Source: Arthrobacter sp. Marseille-P9274 (GTDB lineage Bacteria > Actinomycetota > Actinomycetes > Actinomycetales > Micrococcaceae). Taken from it: a DNA stretch of 64,000 nucleotides. How positions within the stretch are numbered: the first letter of the stretch is position 1; each line of letters begins with the position of its first letter. The DNA lies in the NCBI RefSeq assembly GCF_946892675.1, contig NZ_CAMPOV010000003.1, positions 496,001-560,000 on the forward strand, read 5' to 3'. A program made the translations under genes and the position numbers. Under the pieces are notes generated by a model that worked only from the letters and a program-made list of their open reading frames with translations, was not told where the DNA came from and did not search any database. This document shows positions 17,038 through 22,142 of the stretch, in pieces.

Positions 17038-17715
17038 CTACCCGCCTGCAGCGGGCTGCGGGGTGAGCAGCGGGCAGCTGATCGAGCCAGGGGTCTGGTC
17101 CACCAGCTCCTCCGGCACCAGTTCCCTGAAGCCCGTGCCGACCAGCAGGTCAACGCTGTTGTCCCCGCGCGCGTCGGGCTTGTAGCTGGTGCCCTTGAGG
17201 TTCCGCTGCAGGTTGAAGGCGCCGGCCTCTCCTGCCGGTCCGGCCACGATGACGGCGACGACGCCGGGGCGGATGAGGTCCACGGACTCGACCTTGCCGA
17301 TCTTGTAGCCCCGTTCCTTGAACACCTCGGCGGCCTGGCCCGCGAGCCCCTCCAGCCGGGTGCCGTTGTAGATGTTGAGCGTGAAGGAGCCGTTGTCCGG
17401 GTAGTCGTAGGTTCCCGTCGGGCAGCCTTTGGGCCCGCCAGCGGTCTGGCGCGCCTCCCAGCCCGGAATGACCAGGTCCCCGCGCATCACGGCGAGCGCG
17501 GCCAGCACGGCGGCGACCAGCAGGGCGACCAGGAATACCAGGACGGTCCCGTGGAAGATGTGCCGGCGGCGGTCCCCGTACTCCGTCTCCACGCCGTCCT
17601 CCTCCGGGAAGGTCCGGTCCAGGTCATCCTCGGTGATGATCCGCTCGCCGCGGAGCCGCAGGATGTCCTTCGGCTTGCGCCTGGGGCGGGGCGGCTGCCC
17701 GCCGGTCTCAGTCAT
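17038..17715 (-). CDS. Membrane-anchored LytR_C domain protein
   Basis: A 225-residue protein. The N-terminal cytoplasmic part is basic and then acidic (PPRPRRKPKDILRLRGERII). One transmembrane helix follows (around residues 55-76, VLVFLVALLVAAVLAALAVM). The extracytoplasmic domain is a LytR_C fold: FTLNIYNGTRLEGLAGQAAE, VFKERGYKIGKVESVDLIRP and NSVDLLVGTGFRELVPEELV. LytR_C domains are found with and without the LCP ligase domain that attaches wall polymers; this one lacks LCP, so a catalytic role is not implied. The start ATG overlaps the end of the upstream gene by eight bases, consistent with translational coupling. Confidence 0.8.
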   Translation of the reverse strand: MTETGGQPPRPRRKPKDILRLRGERIITEDDLDRTFPEEDGVETEYGDRRRHIFHGTVLVFLVALLVAAVLAALAVMRGDLVIPGWEARQTAGGPKGCPTGTYDYPDNGSFTLNIYNGTRLEGLAGQAAEVFKERGYKIGKVESVDLIRPGVVAVIVAGPAGEAGAFNLQRNLKGTSYKPDARGDNSVDLLVGTGFRELVPEELVDQTPGSISCPLLTPQPAAGG

Positions 17716-18007
17716 TGAGCACAAGCACGCGGGCGTGGAGCAGCGCGCGCTGGTGGAGGGCGGTTCGGACGGCGCGGTGCAGGCCGTCCTCGAGGTAGAG
17801 CTCGCCGTGCCACTGGACCACGTGCGGGAAGAGGTCCCCGAAGAAGGTGGAGTCCTCGGCCAGCAGCGCGGCCAGATCCAGCGTGCTCTTGGTGGTGATG
17901 AGCTCATCCAGCCGTACCTGGCGCGGCGGAACATTGGCCCAGTCCCGCGGGCTGTCGTATCCATGGTCAGGGTAGGGGCGGCTGTCGCCCACGGCTTTGA
18001 AGATCAC
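17708..18007 (-). CDS. Small conserved protein coupled to the LytR_C gene
   Basis: A 99-residue soluble protein read from GTG 18007: VIFKAVGDSRPYPDHGYDSP, then PPRQVRLDELITTKSTLDLA, then FPHVVQWHGELYLEDGLHRA and a C-terminal helix-strand (ALHQRALLHARVLVLND). I recognise the sequence type as conserved in Micrococcaceae but not its function. The segment L-x-L-x-D-G-x-H-R loosely recalls the ParB/sulfiredoxin-type loop D-G-x-H-R; that is a visual resemblance only. An ATG at 18091 would add an unconserved basic leader. It ends inside the start of the LytR_C gene (8-base overlap), so the two form a bicistron. Confidence 0.65.
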   Translation of the reverse strand: MIFKAVGDSRPYPDHGYDSPRDWANVPPRQVRLDELITTKSTLDLAALLAEDSTFFGDLFPHVVQWHGELYLEDGLHRAVRTALHQRALLHARVLVLND

Positions 18008-18080
18008 CAGACCAGCGTAGGGAAAGCACGCGCCGAACGGAACTCGCCGCTCGGCGCGTGCCGCCGTCGTACTCAAAGAG

Positions 18081-19829
18081 TTACGAGGCAACCAGCTTGA
18101 CCGTCCGGGTCTCGATCACCTCGTCGGTGATCCAGTTCCGGAATTCGACGACCACCTGGTACTCCCCCGCGGCCGGCGGGAAGAGCATCAGGTCCCAGCG
18201 CTCGGCCGACCCGGAGCGCAGCATGCTGGTCATCATCTCCTGCCCGACGTCGCGGCAGGGCTTCGAGGGCCCGGTCGGGTTGGAGGTGTCGCGGAACGGC
18301 CGACCGTCATGGGCGATGACTTCCGCCATCGGCACCGGGTTGCCCGAGGAGTCCAGGAACCGCAGCACCGTGGGCAGATAGTTGGCGTTCAGCAGCCGCA
18401 GCAGGGTCGGCTTCTTGCTGCCGCCCGTGACGTTGGCCCGCAGCTGCTTCAGGCTCCACACAGACTCCCGCCGGTTGGGCCTCCGGGCCAGCTCGCCGCC
18501 CAGGAGGTAGAAGTGGTTCGGCTCGAAGTGGTTGAGCCCCGCGTCCTCGCCGGAGAGGCCGGCCGCGTGGTTCATCCCGTGCCAGCGGGTCGCCATCGAG
18601 TACGGGACCAGAAGGGCCTCGGTGTCGATGTCGTACTCCGGCCCGTCCACGAACGCCCGCCGCGCGCCCGGGCTGACCGGGTAGGCCGGGTCCTCGATCG
18701 GGTCGATGATCAGCGGCCCGAACATGCCCATCTGCACGTGCAGCGTGGTGTTGACGTGGCAGTGGTAGAAGTACGTGCCGGCGGTGCCCCAGTTGGGTTC
18801 TCCCGGACGGCCCTTCTCCGGCTGCCACTGGTAGGTGTACTCGCCGGCGATTTCGAACGAGGTGTGCCCGACGCCGTCGTTGCGCGGGTCCGGCTCCATC
18901 CCGTGCCAGTGGATGGTGTGGTTGCCCTTGCTCGGCTTGAAGTGTGCCTGGAAGATCTGGCCTTCCTTCGGCCGGATCAGCGGGCCGGGAAACTGCTCGC
19001 GCTGGTTGGCGGTTTCGAAGCTCCACATCTCCACTTCGGCGCCGTCGTCGAACCGCAGGTCCGTGCCGTAGAACGAGAGGTCCACGAACAGGTTCGGCGT
19101 CTGCTTGAACTCGGTGATCGGGTTCTCCAGCTCGTTCTGGTTGGAGCTGAAGTCGACCTGGCTGTCGAAGTGGTGTCGGGCCTCTTCCTCGGGTTCCACA
19201 GGGTCCACGGGGTCCGGGGACGACGGCGGATCGGTCGGCTCGGGCGCAGCCGTTTCCGTGGGCGTCGGGGCCGGAGCCGTGGTCTCGACCGGTTCCGGAG
19301 ACGTGGTCTCCACCGGGTCAGGGGACGACGGCGGATCGGTGGGATCCGGAGCGGCCGTCTCGGTGGGCGTCGGTGCCGGAGCCGTGGTGTCCTGCGGATC
19401 CGGCACCACCGGCGGCGGCGTGACCACGGGCGACGGCGACGGCGAGGGCGACGGCGGCTTGGGCCGGTTGGCTTCGGCCTCCTCGCGGCGCTTACGGGCT
19501 TCCTCTTCCCGCTTCCGCCGCTCCTCCTCTTCGCGCCGGCGCTTGGCCTCCGCCGCGGCCTTGCGGCGTGCCTCCTCCTCCCGCCTGCGCTTGGCTTCGG
19601 CCTCCCGCCGCTTCTTCGCCGCGGCCTCGCGCTTGCGCCGGTCCTCCGCCGCGCGGCGCATCGCCTCGTCGTGGCGGCGGCGGGATTCTGCCCGCTTCTT
19701 GGCCTCCGCCTCGCGCTTGCGCTTGGCCTCGGCCTCCCGCTTCTTCCGGGCGAGGGCTTCCTTCTTCTTGCGCTCGGCTTCCTTTTTCTGCCGGGCGGTC
19801 AGCCTGGTCGGAAGCAACGATTCGATCAT
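18081..19829 (-). CDS. Multicopper oxidase subunit A with long basic coil, no signal peptide
   Basis: A 582-residue protein in three parts. Residues ~12-120 are almost only Lys, Arg, Glu and Ala (for example RQKKEAERKKKEALARKK), a highly charged, net-basic helix or coiled coil. Residues ~121-215 are Pro/Thr/Ser linker in which APAPTPTETAAP plus PTDPPSSPDPV occurs twice. Residues ~225-582 are two cupredoxin domains. The first carries an HTIHWHG copper motif (His304, His307, His309) and YFYHCHVNTTLHVQMGM (His356, Cys357, His358, His364, Met367/369). The second resembles a copper-free middle domain (LRLLNANYLPTVLRFLD, VIAHDGRPF). A normal C-terminal HxxHxH...HCH domain is absent. There is no signal peptide. 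The ATG overlaps the stop of subunit B by four bases (ATGA). Confidence 0.82.
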   Translation of the reverse strand: MIESLLPTRLTARQKKEAERKKKEALARKKREAEAKRKREAEAKKRAESRRRHDEAMRRAAEDRRKREAAAKKRREAEAKRRREEEARRKAAAEAKRRREEEERRKREEEARKRREEAEANRPKPPSPSPSPSPVVTPPPVVPDPQDTTAPAPTPTETAAPDPTDPPSSPDPVETTSPEPVETTAPAPTPTETAAPEPTDPPSSPDPVDPVEPEEEARHHFDSQVDFSSNQNELENPITEFKQTPNLFVDLSFYGTDLRFDDGAEVEMWSFETANQREQFPGPLIRPKEGQIFQAHFKPSKGNHTIHWHGMEPDPRNDGVGHTSFEIAGEYTYQWQPEKGRPGEPNWGTAGTYFYHCHVNTTLHVQMGMFGPLIIDPIEDPAYPVSPGARRAFVDGPEYDIDTEALLVPYSMATRWHGMNHAAGLSGEDAGLNHFEPNHFYLLGGELARRPNRRESVWSLKQLRANVTGGSKKPTLLRLLNANYLPTVLRFLDSSGNPVPMAEVIAHDGRPFRDTSNPTGPSKPCRDVGQEMMTSMLRSGSAERWDLMLFPPAAGEYQVVVEFRNWITDEVIETRTVKLVAS

Positions 19830-21490
19830 GATGCTGCCCCTTTGAATGGTCCCTTGATAATCCAGTGGGCGGTCAGGCCGCCCGGGTACATGCCGCCCGC
19901 GGCCGTCTGCGACGACTCGGAGTGGCAGTGCATGGGATAGCCCCAGTCGGAGTTGCGCTCATTCCACACCGGGTCGATCGCGTCCGGCGGCCGCTTGATC
20001 GGGATGATGGATTCCTTCACTTCCATGCCCTTGAGCCGGATGACGTCCTCCCAGTGCTGGAAGCACAGGTACCCGTTCTCGTCGACATGTCCCCTGCTGC
20101 GCTCCCAGTTCTCGTTGTCGCAGCGGACCGTCCAGAGGTGGTTGCCGTGGAAGTGCATCTGGTGGAAAACGATCCCGCAGTTGACCATGCGGACCAACTG
20201 GCCGCCGCGCAGGGAGCCGGGCTCCGAGCCTTCGCCGAACTGGCGGACGTCGAACTGGCGCGGATAGCCGGAGATCGTGGTCTCCTCGTCGGATGCCTTG
20301 TTCAGCTCCTCGTCCCGGGTCATGCCCATGGACTCGTAGCCGCTGCGGCCGTTGAGCGTGAAGTAGCGCGGCACGGCCCGCCGGGTGGCGGGGTCGACGG
20401 TGCCGCCCTTGGCTTCGATGTCGGCCCAGACCGGGTCTACCGCGTGCGCCAGCCAGACCCACTGGCGCTCGAACTCCGCCAGGCCCGGCCCAATGGACCA
20501 GCGTTCCTTCGAGTCCATCACGACCAGCGCGCCGTACAGCCCCAGCGTCCGTTCGACCGGCTGGTTCCCGGGATCGCTGTAGATGTAGATGCCCGGCTCC
20601 GGCGCGTCCAGCTCCAGGAGGGCGTGCTCCCCCGGCGCGATCTTCCCGGTGGTGACGTCCTCGCCGTCGTCCCCTGCCTTGTGGATGGCCAGTTCGTGTT
20701 CCTTGGCCAGCCGGTTGTGCACGCGCAGCCGGATGGTGGAACCGGTCTCCGCCACGATCACTCGCTCGGGCATGAAGCTGCCCCAGTACGCGCGGCGGAT
20801 CAGGTACTGGCCCGGGTTGGACGTGTCCGCGCGCAGCGGCTCCGGGGTGCCGCGCGGCGGTTGCGGCGCCCCCACCGGGTAGACCCGGCTTGCCACCAGG
20901 TCCCCGTCCTTGAGGAAAACGCGAGGCTTGATGGCCAGGCTTGGATCGGCGTCGTTCTTGTCCGTGGGACGGTCGCCGAAGCCGCGGTGGTAGACGAGCG
21001 AATCGTCCACCATCTTGAGGTAGCCCTCGTTGATGTAGACGTCGAGCACGGGCTTGGAGCTGTGCTGCCCGGTGTCCGACTCGCTCTCGGCTTCGACCGC
21101 TTCTTCCGCGGCTTCCTCGGCCTCCTCGACCGCTTCTTCCGCGGCTTCCTCGGCCTCCTCGGCCGCTTCCTCCGCGTCGGCCGAGGTCTGGGCCTCGGCC
21201 TCGGTGTCCGTCCCGGCCTCCGCCTCCGCCTCCGGCGACGGGGTTGTCCCGGCTTTGTTGCCCGCCTCGGCCTCGGTCCCCGGCGCGGCCTCGTCCGCCT
21301 CCGCCTCCGTCTCCGGCGTCGGCGTTGGCGTCGCCGTCCCCGCATGGGCAGGCTGCTGGCCGCCGGCGAGCGCAAGCGCACCGAGGCCGGCTATCGTGCC
21401 GTACTTGACGAAGCTCCACCTGCTGACCGGCGCCTCCGGCGCTTCATTCTCCACGGTTCCCTCATCCAGGTCGTCGTAATGCTCAGCCAT
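19826..21490 (-). CDS. Multicopper oxidase subunit B with signal peptide and acidic tail
   Basis: A 554-residue protein. Residues ~22-50 form a signal peptide: SRWSFVKYGTIAGLGALALA ending QQPAHA|G. The leading R-W-S-F-V-K resembles a Tat motif with one Arg replaced. Residues ~59-140 are acidic low complexity with nearly no Lys/Arg (EEAAEEAEEAAEEAVEEAEE), likely a helix. Residues ~145-330 are a cupredoxin domain that has lost its copper motifs (HELAIHKAG, then IYIYSDPGNQPVERTLGLYG). The C-terminal domain has VFHQMHFHGNH (His443, His446, His448) and YPMHCHSESSQTAAGGMYPG (His521, Cys522, His523, Met534). The type 1 copper His expected after HCH is missing. The HCHSE..QTAAGG tail recalls large bacterial Mn-oxidase-type proteins (tentative). 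The start overlaps the upstream gene by eight bases. Confidence 0.85.
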   Translation of the reverse strand: MAEHYDDLDEGTVENEAPEAPVSRWSFVKYGTIAGLGALALAGGQQPAHAGTATPTPTPETEAEADEAAPGTEAEAGNKAGTTPSPEAEAEAGTDTEAEAQTSADAEEAAEEAEEAAEEAVEEAEEAAEEAVEAESESDTGQHSSKPVLDVYINEGYLKMVDDSLVYHRGFGDRPTDKNDADPSLAIKPRVFLKDGDLVASRVYPVGAPQPPRGTPEPLRADTSNPGQYLIRRAYWGSFMPERVIVAETGSTIRLRVHNRLAKEHELAIHKAGDDGEDVTTGKIAPGEHALLELDAPEPGIYIYSDPGNQPVERTLGLYGALVVMDSKERWSIGPGLAEFERQWVWLAHAVDPVWADIEAKGGTVDPATRRAVPRYFTLNGRSGYESMGMTRDEELNKASDEETTISGYPRQFDVRQFGEGSEPGSLRGGQLVRMVNCGIVFHQMHFHGNHLWTVRCDNENWERSRGHVDENGYLCFQHWEDVIRLKGMEVKESIIPIKRPPDAIDPVWNERNSDWGYPMHCHSESSQTAAGGMYPGGLTAHWIIKGPFKGAAS

Positions 21491-22142
21491 GGTCGGCCTC
21501 CAGCCAGCCCGGCCGCTGCAGCACTTCCGGCAGTTCCAGGGCCAGCGGGCCGCCGTCCGACCACGGGTCGGTGAACTCGGCAGAGATGTCCTGGACGTCG
21601 GACGGGACCAGGAAGCTGATCCAGAAGTGCGAGGTGGAGCCCGGCTCCAGCGCGCCCTTGCCGGTGCCCGGCCCCCGGTTGGTCACCGTGGGACCAACCG
21701 CGCCGACCTTCAGCCGCAGCTGCCCCGGCGAGAAGAGCACCTTGCGGTCCAGGCCGTTGTGGACCTCGAGCTCGACCATCATGTGGTCGCCCCAGGTCAG
21801 GTTGAACGGCTGTGCCGTTTTGCTGGCGACCGCATGGCCGCCGTGTCCGCCCTGCGCATTCGCTGCTGCATGGTCCGCTCCTGGTACCTGCGGGTTGCGG
21901 GCCTGCCGTTCGGCTGCGTTGATCCGGACGCTGCCGAAGGAAGTCCAGACTCCCTCGCCGCGGGAGATCCCGCCGTCGTTATCGGCGTGCTGTCCGGCCG
22001 CGATCAGGCTCCCGCCGCCCACAATGCCGGCAATGCCGGCGCCCATCAGTACCCCAAAAACCCGTCGCGTCAGTCCGGTTGGAACCTCTTCCGATTCAAC
22101 CGCACCCGGCGCGACAGCTTGTTCCCCAACTACTGTCATCAT
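21483..22142 (-). CDS. First gene of the oxidase operon: exported His-rich protein
   Basis: A 219-residue protein starting MMTVVGEQAV (ATG 22142, or the next codon). Near residue 28 is LTRRVFGVLMGAGIAGIVGG, a twin-arginine plus hydrophobic segment, so Tat-dependent export or membrane anchoring is likely. After it comes a His/Gly-rich stretch, GADHAAANAQGGHGGHAVAS, suited to metal binding. A beta-rich domain follows (FNLTWGDHMMVELEVHNGLD, RKVLFSPGQLRLKVGAVGPT and STSHFWISFLVPSDVQDISA), possibly a small immunoglobulin-like or cupredoxin-like fold. I cannot name the family. Its stop overlaps the start of subunit B by eight bases, which ties it to oxidase biogenesis; a copper chaperone is my inference. 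The frame continues upstream to 22496, but that part overlaps the divergent HAD gene and is excluded. Confidence 0.75.
   Translation of the reverse strand: MMTVVGEQAVAPGAVESEEVPTGLTRRVFGVLMGAGIAGIVGGGSLIAAGQHADNDGGISRGEGVWTSFGSVRINAAERQARNPQVPGADHAAANAQGGHGGHAVASKTAQPFNLTWGDHMMVELEVHNGLDRKVLFSPGQLRLKVGAVGPTVTNRGPGTGKGALEPGSTSHFWISFLVPSDVQDISAEFTDPWSDGGPLALELPEVLQRPGWLEADHG

Follow-up and report, generated by a model that had tools for sequence, protein, structure and literature searches.

Multicopper oxidases (MCOs) are listed as two-, three- or six-domain enzymes, and those of the two-domain type are described as trimers of one protein in which two protomers build the trinuclear copper site (PMC13151041). 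In the MnxG-like bacterial and the green-algal six-domain enzymes the trinuclear ligands are reported to lie in domains 2 and 3, with a mononuclear copper in domain 2 of the bacterial enzymes (PMC3600357). We examined a stretch of 64,000 nucleotides (nt) from the soil bacterium Arthrobacter sp. Marseille-P9274 (contig NZ_CAMPOV010000003.1, positions 496,001 to 560,000; the window) in which an initial annotation, made from the sequence alone, had proposed that two adjacent genes, A and B, encode complementary halves of an MCO joined by oppositely charged tails. Our analysis indicated that B and A probably form a heteromeric MCO with its trinuclear centre at the interface between the two proteins. 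In the open-access literature, to the extent that its text was available, a two-gene MCO with a divided trinuclear site was not found described.

Complementary copper half-sites in genes A and B

Both reading frames were present at the coordinates given in the initial annotation, encoded by the minus strand as a C-B-A series in which C is a small gene upstream of B. The stop of B and the start of A overlapped by 4 nt (19826 to 19829) and the stop of C and the start of B by 8 nt (21483 to 21490). The cut-off of the Pfam family Cu-oxidase_3 (21 bits) was exceeded by A (40.7 bits) and by B (22.8 bits), so that these matches were not due to chance, and A and B together contained the cupredoxin domains with HxH and HCH copper motifs that characterize the MCO superfamily. 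The description of two overlapping minus-strand genes as MCO halves was thus borne out by frames, overlaps, motifs, charged tails and Pfam matches. By the named NCBIfam models at their curated cut-offs, neither A nor B was assigned to the three-domain laccase/CueO/CopA group; both scored far too low, A for example reaching 46.6 bits against a cut-off of 478.95 bits for copper_res_A.

Relatives were collected by a scan of species genomes, and the best 80 of at least 537 confirmed relatives were examined (loci are given L numbers). These comprised 51 split loci, 26 loci with the two halves fused in one chain (two of them, L143 and L144, interrupted) and 3 loci with A only. All 27 distant loci (L146 to L172) were split with both halves side by side; they came from alpha-, beta- and gammaproteobacteria, one member of the Acidimicrobiales and another actinobacterium. 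No NCBIfam model came near its curated cut-off for A, B or C of the window, and the same held for two distant pairs and one fused chain.

The A motifs HxxHxHG and HCHxNTxxH were kept in 81 of 81 rows covering each site. They supply four trinuclear histidines and the type-1 His, Cys and His, with a Met or Leu nearby, and the type-1 set of the window protein was complete (H304, C357, H364 and M367/M369). Alignment of B detected the first HxH in 77 of 77 covering rows and the second in 78 of 78; the second type-1 His was missing in all covering rows. In all rows that cover the sites, each half retained four of the eight trinuclear-site histidines. The first domain of B had no copper motifs at the aligned place, and no HxH was found beyond the first domain in 48 of the 50 split A proteins checked (the exceptions being L101 and L150). 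Two-domain MCOs of types A to C carry both trinuclear half-sites on one polypeptide; here the alignment gave a full ligand set only when A and B were combined. With all of the type-1 ligands in A and the second type-1 His missing from B, these alignments predict a functional type-1 site in A and leave B with just its half of the trinuclear site. The initial annotation had recognized the half-site motifs of A and missed the complete type-1 set, and the C-terminal-type copper set that it assigned to B held for the trinuclear histidines and not for the HCH motif, which lacks the second type-1 His. In B proteins of gamma/beta type from L146, L147, L150, L153, L155, L160, L162 to L164, L168, L169 and L172, the HCH cysteine was lost (HLH or HFH) and the trinuclear histidines were kept.

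A Cu-oxidase_3 search of the host genome gave ten matches, including three open reading frames (ORFs) with two matches each. These three paralogues, which the initial annotation had missed, are single chains of about 800 residues, the first half of which aligns with B and the second with A from about residue 222. Judged by this alignment, A and B of the window correspond to one such paralogous chain, divided at the linker between domain 2 (D2) and domain 3 (D3) and with tails added. An AlphaFold model of a natural fused chain (four domains, 782 residues) was obtained with high confidence (predicted local distance difference test [pLDDT], 93; predicted template modelling score [pTM], 0.93). Over its whole length this model matched ceruloplasmin best; it aligned to ceruloplasmin residues 2 to 697, and its four domains lay on ceruloplasmin domains 1 to 4. 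The predicted packing was ceruloplasmin-like for the domains present, and the fused chain had four cupredoxin domains where a six-domain MCO has six. A third cupredoxin subunit that would complete a ceruloplasmin-like ring was also considered; no recurring gene for one emerged from clustering of neighbouring genes, for which a coarse ORF method yielding many shadow ORFs was used.

These features set the pair apart from its nearest described counterparts. B-A shares domain order and predicted packing with ceruloplasmin and the MnxG-like/FOX1 enzymes but has four domains, not six, divided between two separate proteins. Coagulation factors V and VIII also ranked high in the fold search; their ceruloplasmin-like A domains are in two chains, which are made by proteolysis of one precursor, and they have no oxidase centre. 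Profile alignment mapped the A motifs onto domain 1 of the two-domain oxidases 3g5w, which we take to be of type C, and 2zwn, so that the first domain of A resembles theirs in both type-1 and trinuclear ligands; unlike these one-gene trimers, the pair consists of two genes, with each half lacking the complementary ligands. In laccases of the POXA3 type the whole copper site is in the laccase subunit. The fungal heterodimeric enzyme resembles B-A in having a second subunit, which is described as a stability and activity factor (PMC10741624). PDB entry 9cck, with two chain types, was considered as a heteromeric oxidase and rejected, its title naming one Nitrosopumilus oxidase. The earlier claim that no described oxidase has this layout was too strong for domain order, given what is reported for the MnxG-like bacterial and algal six-domain enzymes (PMC3600357), and holds for the division between two proteins within the literature consulted.

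Distribution and history of the split and fused forms

In all 51 split loci B preceded A on the same strand, and 4-nt overlaps were frequent. Within the genus, a match was found in 10 of 10 genomes and a split pair in 9. A survey of the family, using a strict threshold and scoring three candidates per genome, detected matches in 27 of 295 genomes (7 of 32 genera), with split pairs in five genera. At the phylum level 3 of 296 actinobacterial genomes matched, one weakly, and in the class of Skermanella the only match among 337 genomes was the one on which the survey was centred. The family is patchily distributed, since broad surveys yielded few matches. Whole-genome searches of five distant genomes detected strong A matches beside B matches, save one at a contig start, and Skermanella aerolata contained about seven pairs. 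In Indioceanicola profundi (L175:4745-6984), B was annotated as a "hypothetical protein" and A as a "multicopper oxidase domain-containing protein"; both were confirmed by profile.

Solitary halves were also detected. One of the A-only loci, L116, begins at a contig edge, and A. subterraneus, the source of the A-only locus L105, also holds a complete pair (L099). B-only genes were found in L068 (4358 to 5830) and in L069 to L072. In the latter group B was preceded by no more of C than roughly its first 30 to 40 residues, no A was present in the stretch, and B was open in L069 to L071 and interrupted in L072; we read these four loci as decayed copies of a C-B-A operon.

In a tree of A (76 rows, midpoint root), for which the program warned of some long branches, the fused chains formed two well-supported clades, of 18 and 6, inside the split rows. 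A tree of B (75 rows) also required two changes, and one fusion with a later re-split of L114 and L115 was equally cheap. By either tree, the split form is the more widespread of the two and at least one fusion has taken place. The fusion of neighbours into one chain argues that A and B act as one unit.

Charged tails, export and neighbouring genes

The features of the window are collected in Table 1.

Table 1. Positions of genes, copper motifs, tails and leaders of the C-B-A locus in the window
Feature	Coordinates	Strand	Description
Gene A, 582 residues	18081..19829	-	basic coil, Pro/Thr linker, cupredoxin D3 (copper) and D4 (bare)
Gene B, 554 residues	19826..21490	-	decayed Tat-like leader and acidic tail, followed by bare D1 and by D2 with half of the trinuclear site
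Gene C (P0004), 219 residues	21483..22142	-	twin-arginine leader and weakly DUF4352-like domain; overlaps B
A motif 1, HTIHWHG, residues 304-310	18900..18920	-	H304 type-1; H307 and H309 trinuclear
A motif 2, YHCHVNTTLHVQMGM, residues 355-369	18723..18767	-	two trinuclear His plus type-1 Cys, His and Met (H356, C357, H358, H364, M367/M369)
A linker, Pro/Thr/Ser/Asp/Glu-rich, residues 119-218	19176..19475	-	100 residues: 3 Lys/Arg, 19 Asp/Glu
A coil, Lys/Arg/Glu/Ala, residues 1-118	19476..19829	-	51 Lys/Arg, 29 Asp/Glu
B motif 1, HQMHFHGNH, residues 443-451	20138..20164	-	H446 and H448 trinuclear; H443 at type-1 His position
B motif 2, MHCHSESSQTAAGGM, residues 520-534	19889..19933	-	H521, C522, H523; second type-1 His lacking
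B acidic tail, residues 51-145	21056..21340	-	32 Asp/Glu, 1 Lys/Arg
B leader-like stretch, SRWSFVKYGTIAGLGALALAGG	21359..21424	-	second Arg of twin-arginine motif replaced by Trp
C twin-arginine leader, TRRVFGVLMGAGIAGIVGGGSLIAAG	21993..22070	-	clean RR leader

The tails of the window proteins were of opposite charge, as the initial annotation had stated. Among the split loci examined, an acidic B tail (25 to 33 acidic residues) was confined to the window and L093 to L096; the mature B tails of the other 20 actinobacterial split loci had 0 to 2 acidic residues, and many of the A tails were basic. The comparison found no A start for L100. The extension of A was 14 residues or shorter in L106, L114, L115, L122, L123 and L142, and in A of the 27 distant loci it was 7 to 64 residues long, of which no more than 5 were Lys/Arg. 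A basic coil was missing from A in 33 of 52 split loci. Because the acidic B tail was confined to five loci and the A coil was so often missing, pairing of the tails was rejected as a general mechanism: to judge from tail composition, assembly cannot depend on it in general.

Export was a problem that the initial annotation had missed, together with gene C. No signal peptide was seen in residues 1 to 118 of A. In the distant pairs, for which starts were chosen by rule, a twin-arginine (RR) motif was detected in 25 of 27 B proteins (L149 has KR and L151 is cut), and A was without a hydrophobic leader in 25 of 27 (L154 and L156 being Ala-rich). In the 25 actinobacterial split loci, counting that of the window, RR was kept by B in 3 (L122, L123 and L142) under the rule applied; most other leaders read R-W, R-S, R-G or similar, L103 and L108 were borderline, and B of L114 and L115 had no leader. 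Across L093 to L134 and the window the second Arg was replaced in most B leaders and the rest of the leader pattern, including the hydrophobic stretch, was kept. C is a small protein with an RR leader and weak DUF4352 similarity (E value of 0.0029 in the window, and of 0.01 or lower for 15 of 33 members). It was directly upstream in the window and in 22 of 24 other actinobacterial split loci (the exceptions were L094, at a contig edge, and L142, on a short contig). Of the 26 fused loci, 13 likewise had C immediately upstream and 2 had it nearby on the opposite strand. The fused chains examined showed no leader of their own.

In hitchhiker complexes of the twin-arginine translocation (Tat) system, such as HybOC and PaoABC, partners that have no leader are exported by means of the Tat signal of a single subunit, and PaoABC is a comparable three-part case (PMC4273604). 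The same elements were found here, with leaderless A encoded beside a B with a putative Tat leader in distant loci or a C with one in the window. No MCO of the B-A kind was seen among the papers on Tat hitchhiking that a search listed. As the leader of C is clean, that of B is decayed and A is leaderless, Tat hitchhiking is suggested, and the simplest reading would be that A rode on B and that the signal later moved to C. In the ancestral state, A would have been exported folded together with the Tat-targeted B; in the window lineage, C would now carry the Tat signal.

Neighbouring genes gave some indication of function. Nine of the 27 distant loci shared a gene directly downstream of A, which was SCO1/SenC in three scanned loci (L165, L161 and L152). 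Animal haem peroxidase genes were detected by Pfam near the B-A-SCO1 cluster of alphaproteobacteria (L152:5995-8994 and L170:9055-11202), and an ORF at L158:9568-10611 was similar to this family, which recalls Mn(II)-oxidizing peroxidases. CusB- and AcrB-family pump genes were downstream in L150 and L169, in which B is without the HCH cysteine. On the Arthrobacter FW305-BF8 plasmid NZ_CP084562.1 (L173:4538-6885), a gene of the fused type was interrupted inside D3 and annotated as two overlapping ORFs, and an Nramp transporter and a metal-dependent regulator are encoded close by. We lean towards a metal oxidase or a copper-handling enzyme; that a metal ion such as Cu(I) or Mn(II) is the substrate is a guess from the neighbour genes of relatives, held with low confidence. 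In the window, a VapB-like antitoxin gene (PF23719, E value of 1.6e-49) directly follows A at 17708 to 18091 on the minus strand, with an 11-nt overlap if a TTG start is used.

Alternative readings and significance

If B and A form one enzyme, B would give domains 1 and 2 with four trinuclear-site histidines, and A would give domains 3 and 4 with the remaining four histidines and the entire type-1 site. Packing in the order D1-D2-D3-D4, as in the first four of the six domains of human ceruloplasmin, would place the trinuclear centre at the interface between D2 of B and D3 of A. The separate subunits would touch, take up copper and act as an oxidase, with electrons passing from the type-1 copper in A along its Cys-His path to the shared centre. 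Several observations weigh against this reading. In 14 of 78 rows Leu, Phe or Asp stood in place of the HCH cysteine of B. Ligands were intact in the A-only loci L105 (8007 to 9083) and L111 (4546 to 5691), and no B was found within 8 kb upstream of A in L105 or within 4.6 kb in L111; four of the ten genus genomes had B-only loci, and each of these four held the pair as well. Divergence of A and B was correlated (Spearman coefficient of 0.83), which is expected from shared ancestry alone. The structural model was of a fused relative, 62% identical to the window core of A and 53% to that of B, not of the separate window proteins, and was read without copper-ligand distances. Its four domains would fill only two thirds of a ceruloplasmin-like ring, and the type-1 set is in a D3-type domain, unlike the mononuclear site in domain 2 reported for the MnxG-like enzymes (PMC3600357). 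No C was detected around 11 of the 26 fused loci (contig ends cut some of these), and none was found in the 27 distant loci.

It is unlikely that each protein acts by itself, A as a type-1 electron-transfer protein or homo-oligomer and B as a non-catalytic scaffold. The complete type-1 site of A, the losses of the second type-1 His and, in some rows, the Cys from B, the solitary loci and the trimers of one protein formed by two-domain oxidases (PMC13151041) would agree with such roles. B nevertheless keeps its four trinuclear histidines as the type-1 ligands go, as if only the half-site were needed, and an HxH beyond the first domain was seen in only 2 of the 50 A proteins. Homologues in which A or B works alone, which the initial annotation had named as telling against it, were mostly not indicated: solitary function is disfavoured because both halves were paired in 27 of 27 distant loci and natural fusions exist, with the B-only and A-only loci as exceptions. 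L105 and L111 lowered our confidence in the shared centre slightly and raised that in solitary function slightly. A recently broken single-chain gene, a pseudogene or a sequencing artefact might be considered given the single-chain paralogues in the host and the interruptions in L143, L144 and the plasmid copy, but 9 of the 10 genus genomes carried split pairs, as did other genera of the family and another phylum, with conserved ligands and frequent 4-nt overlaps. Breakage was rejected on these comparative data and is extremely improbable.

The shared trinuclear site thus remained the most likely way in which the complementary halves come together, as the initial annotation had supposed, and the mechanism that it gave for this did not hold as a general one. 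Joining of the half-sites by the tails is very improbable: the charges are opposite in the window and the four sister loci L093 to L096, but the acidic B tail is restricted to this clade, basic A coils occur without it, A extensions elsewhere are short or poor in Lys/Arg, and fused chains have only short linkers at the tail position. The tails may be late tethers or linkers and not the cause of assembly. It is possible, though we consider it doubtful, that A and B form the shared enzyme and that C is an unrelated secreted protein, the leader of B itself anchoring or exporting the pair. B still has a hydrophobic stretch together with one Arg and one Lys, and C was not detected around those 11 fused loci, but leaderless fused chains (13 of 26) and the L114 and L115 pairs have an RR-bearing C directly upstream.

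Taken as a whole, the locus may represent an undescribed obligate heteromeric family, in effect two thirds of a ceruloplasmin, that leaves the cell folded by hitchhiking on the Tat system, has moved its signal from B to C and has fused at least once, probably twice; we hold this combined proposal tentatively, with slightly less than even confidence. A trinuclear site divided between two gene products would add a further plan to the listed oxidase types. Such a pair is easily overlooked because B can be annotated as a hypothetical protein. The family would also offer a natural test of the origin of the larger oxidases by two-domain duplication, complementary loss of half-sites and fusion, and the presence of split and fused forms in one genome allows the two to be compared directly. 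Should A ride on B or C, the enzyme would by its design be assembled before it is exported, and it would become testable in which sequence folding, export and copper loading take place.
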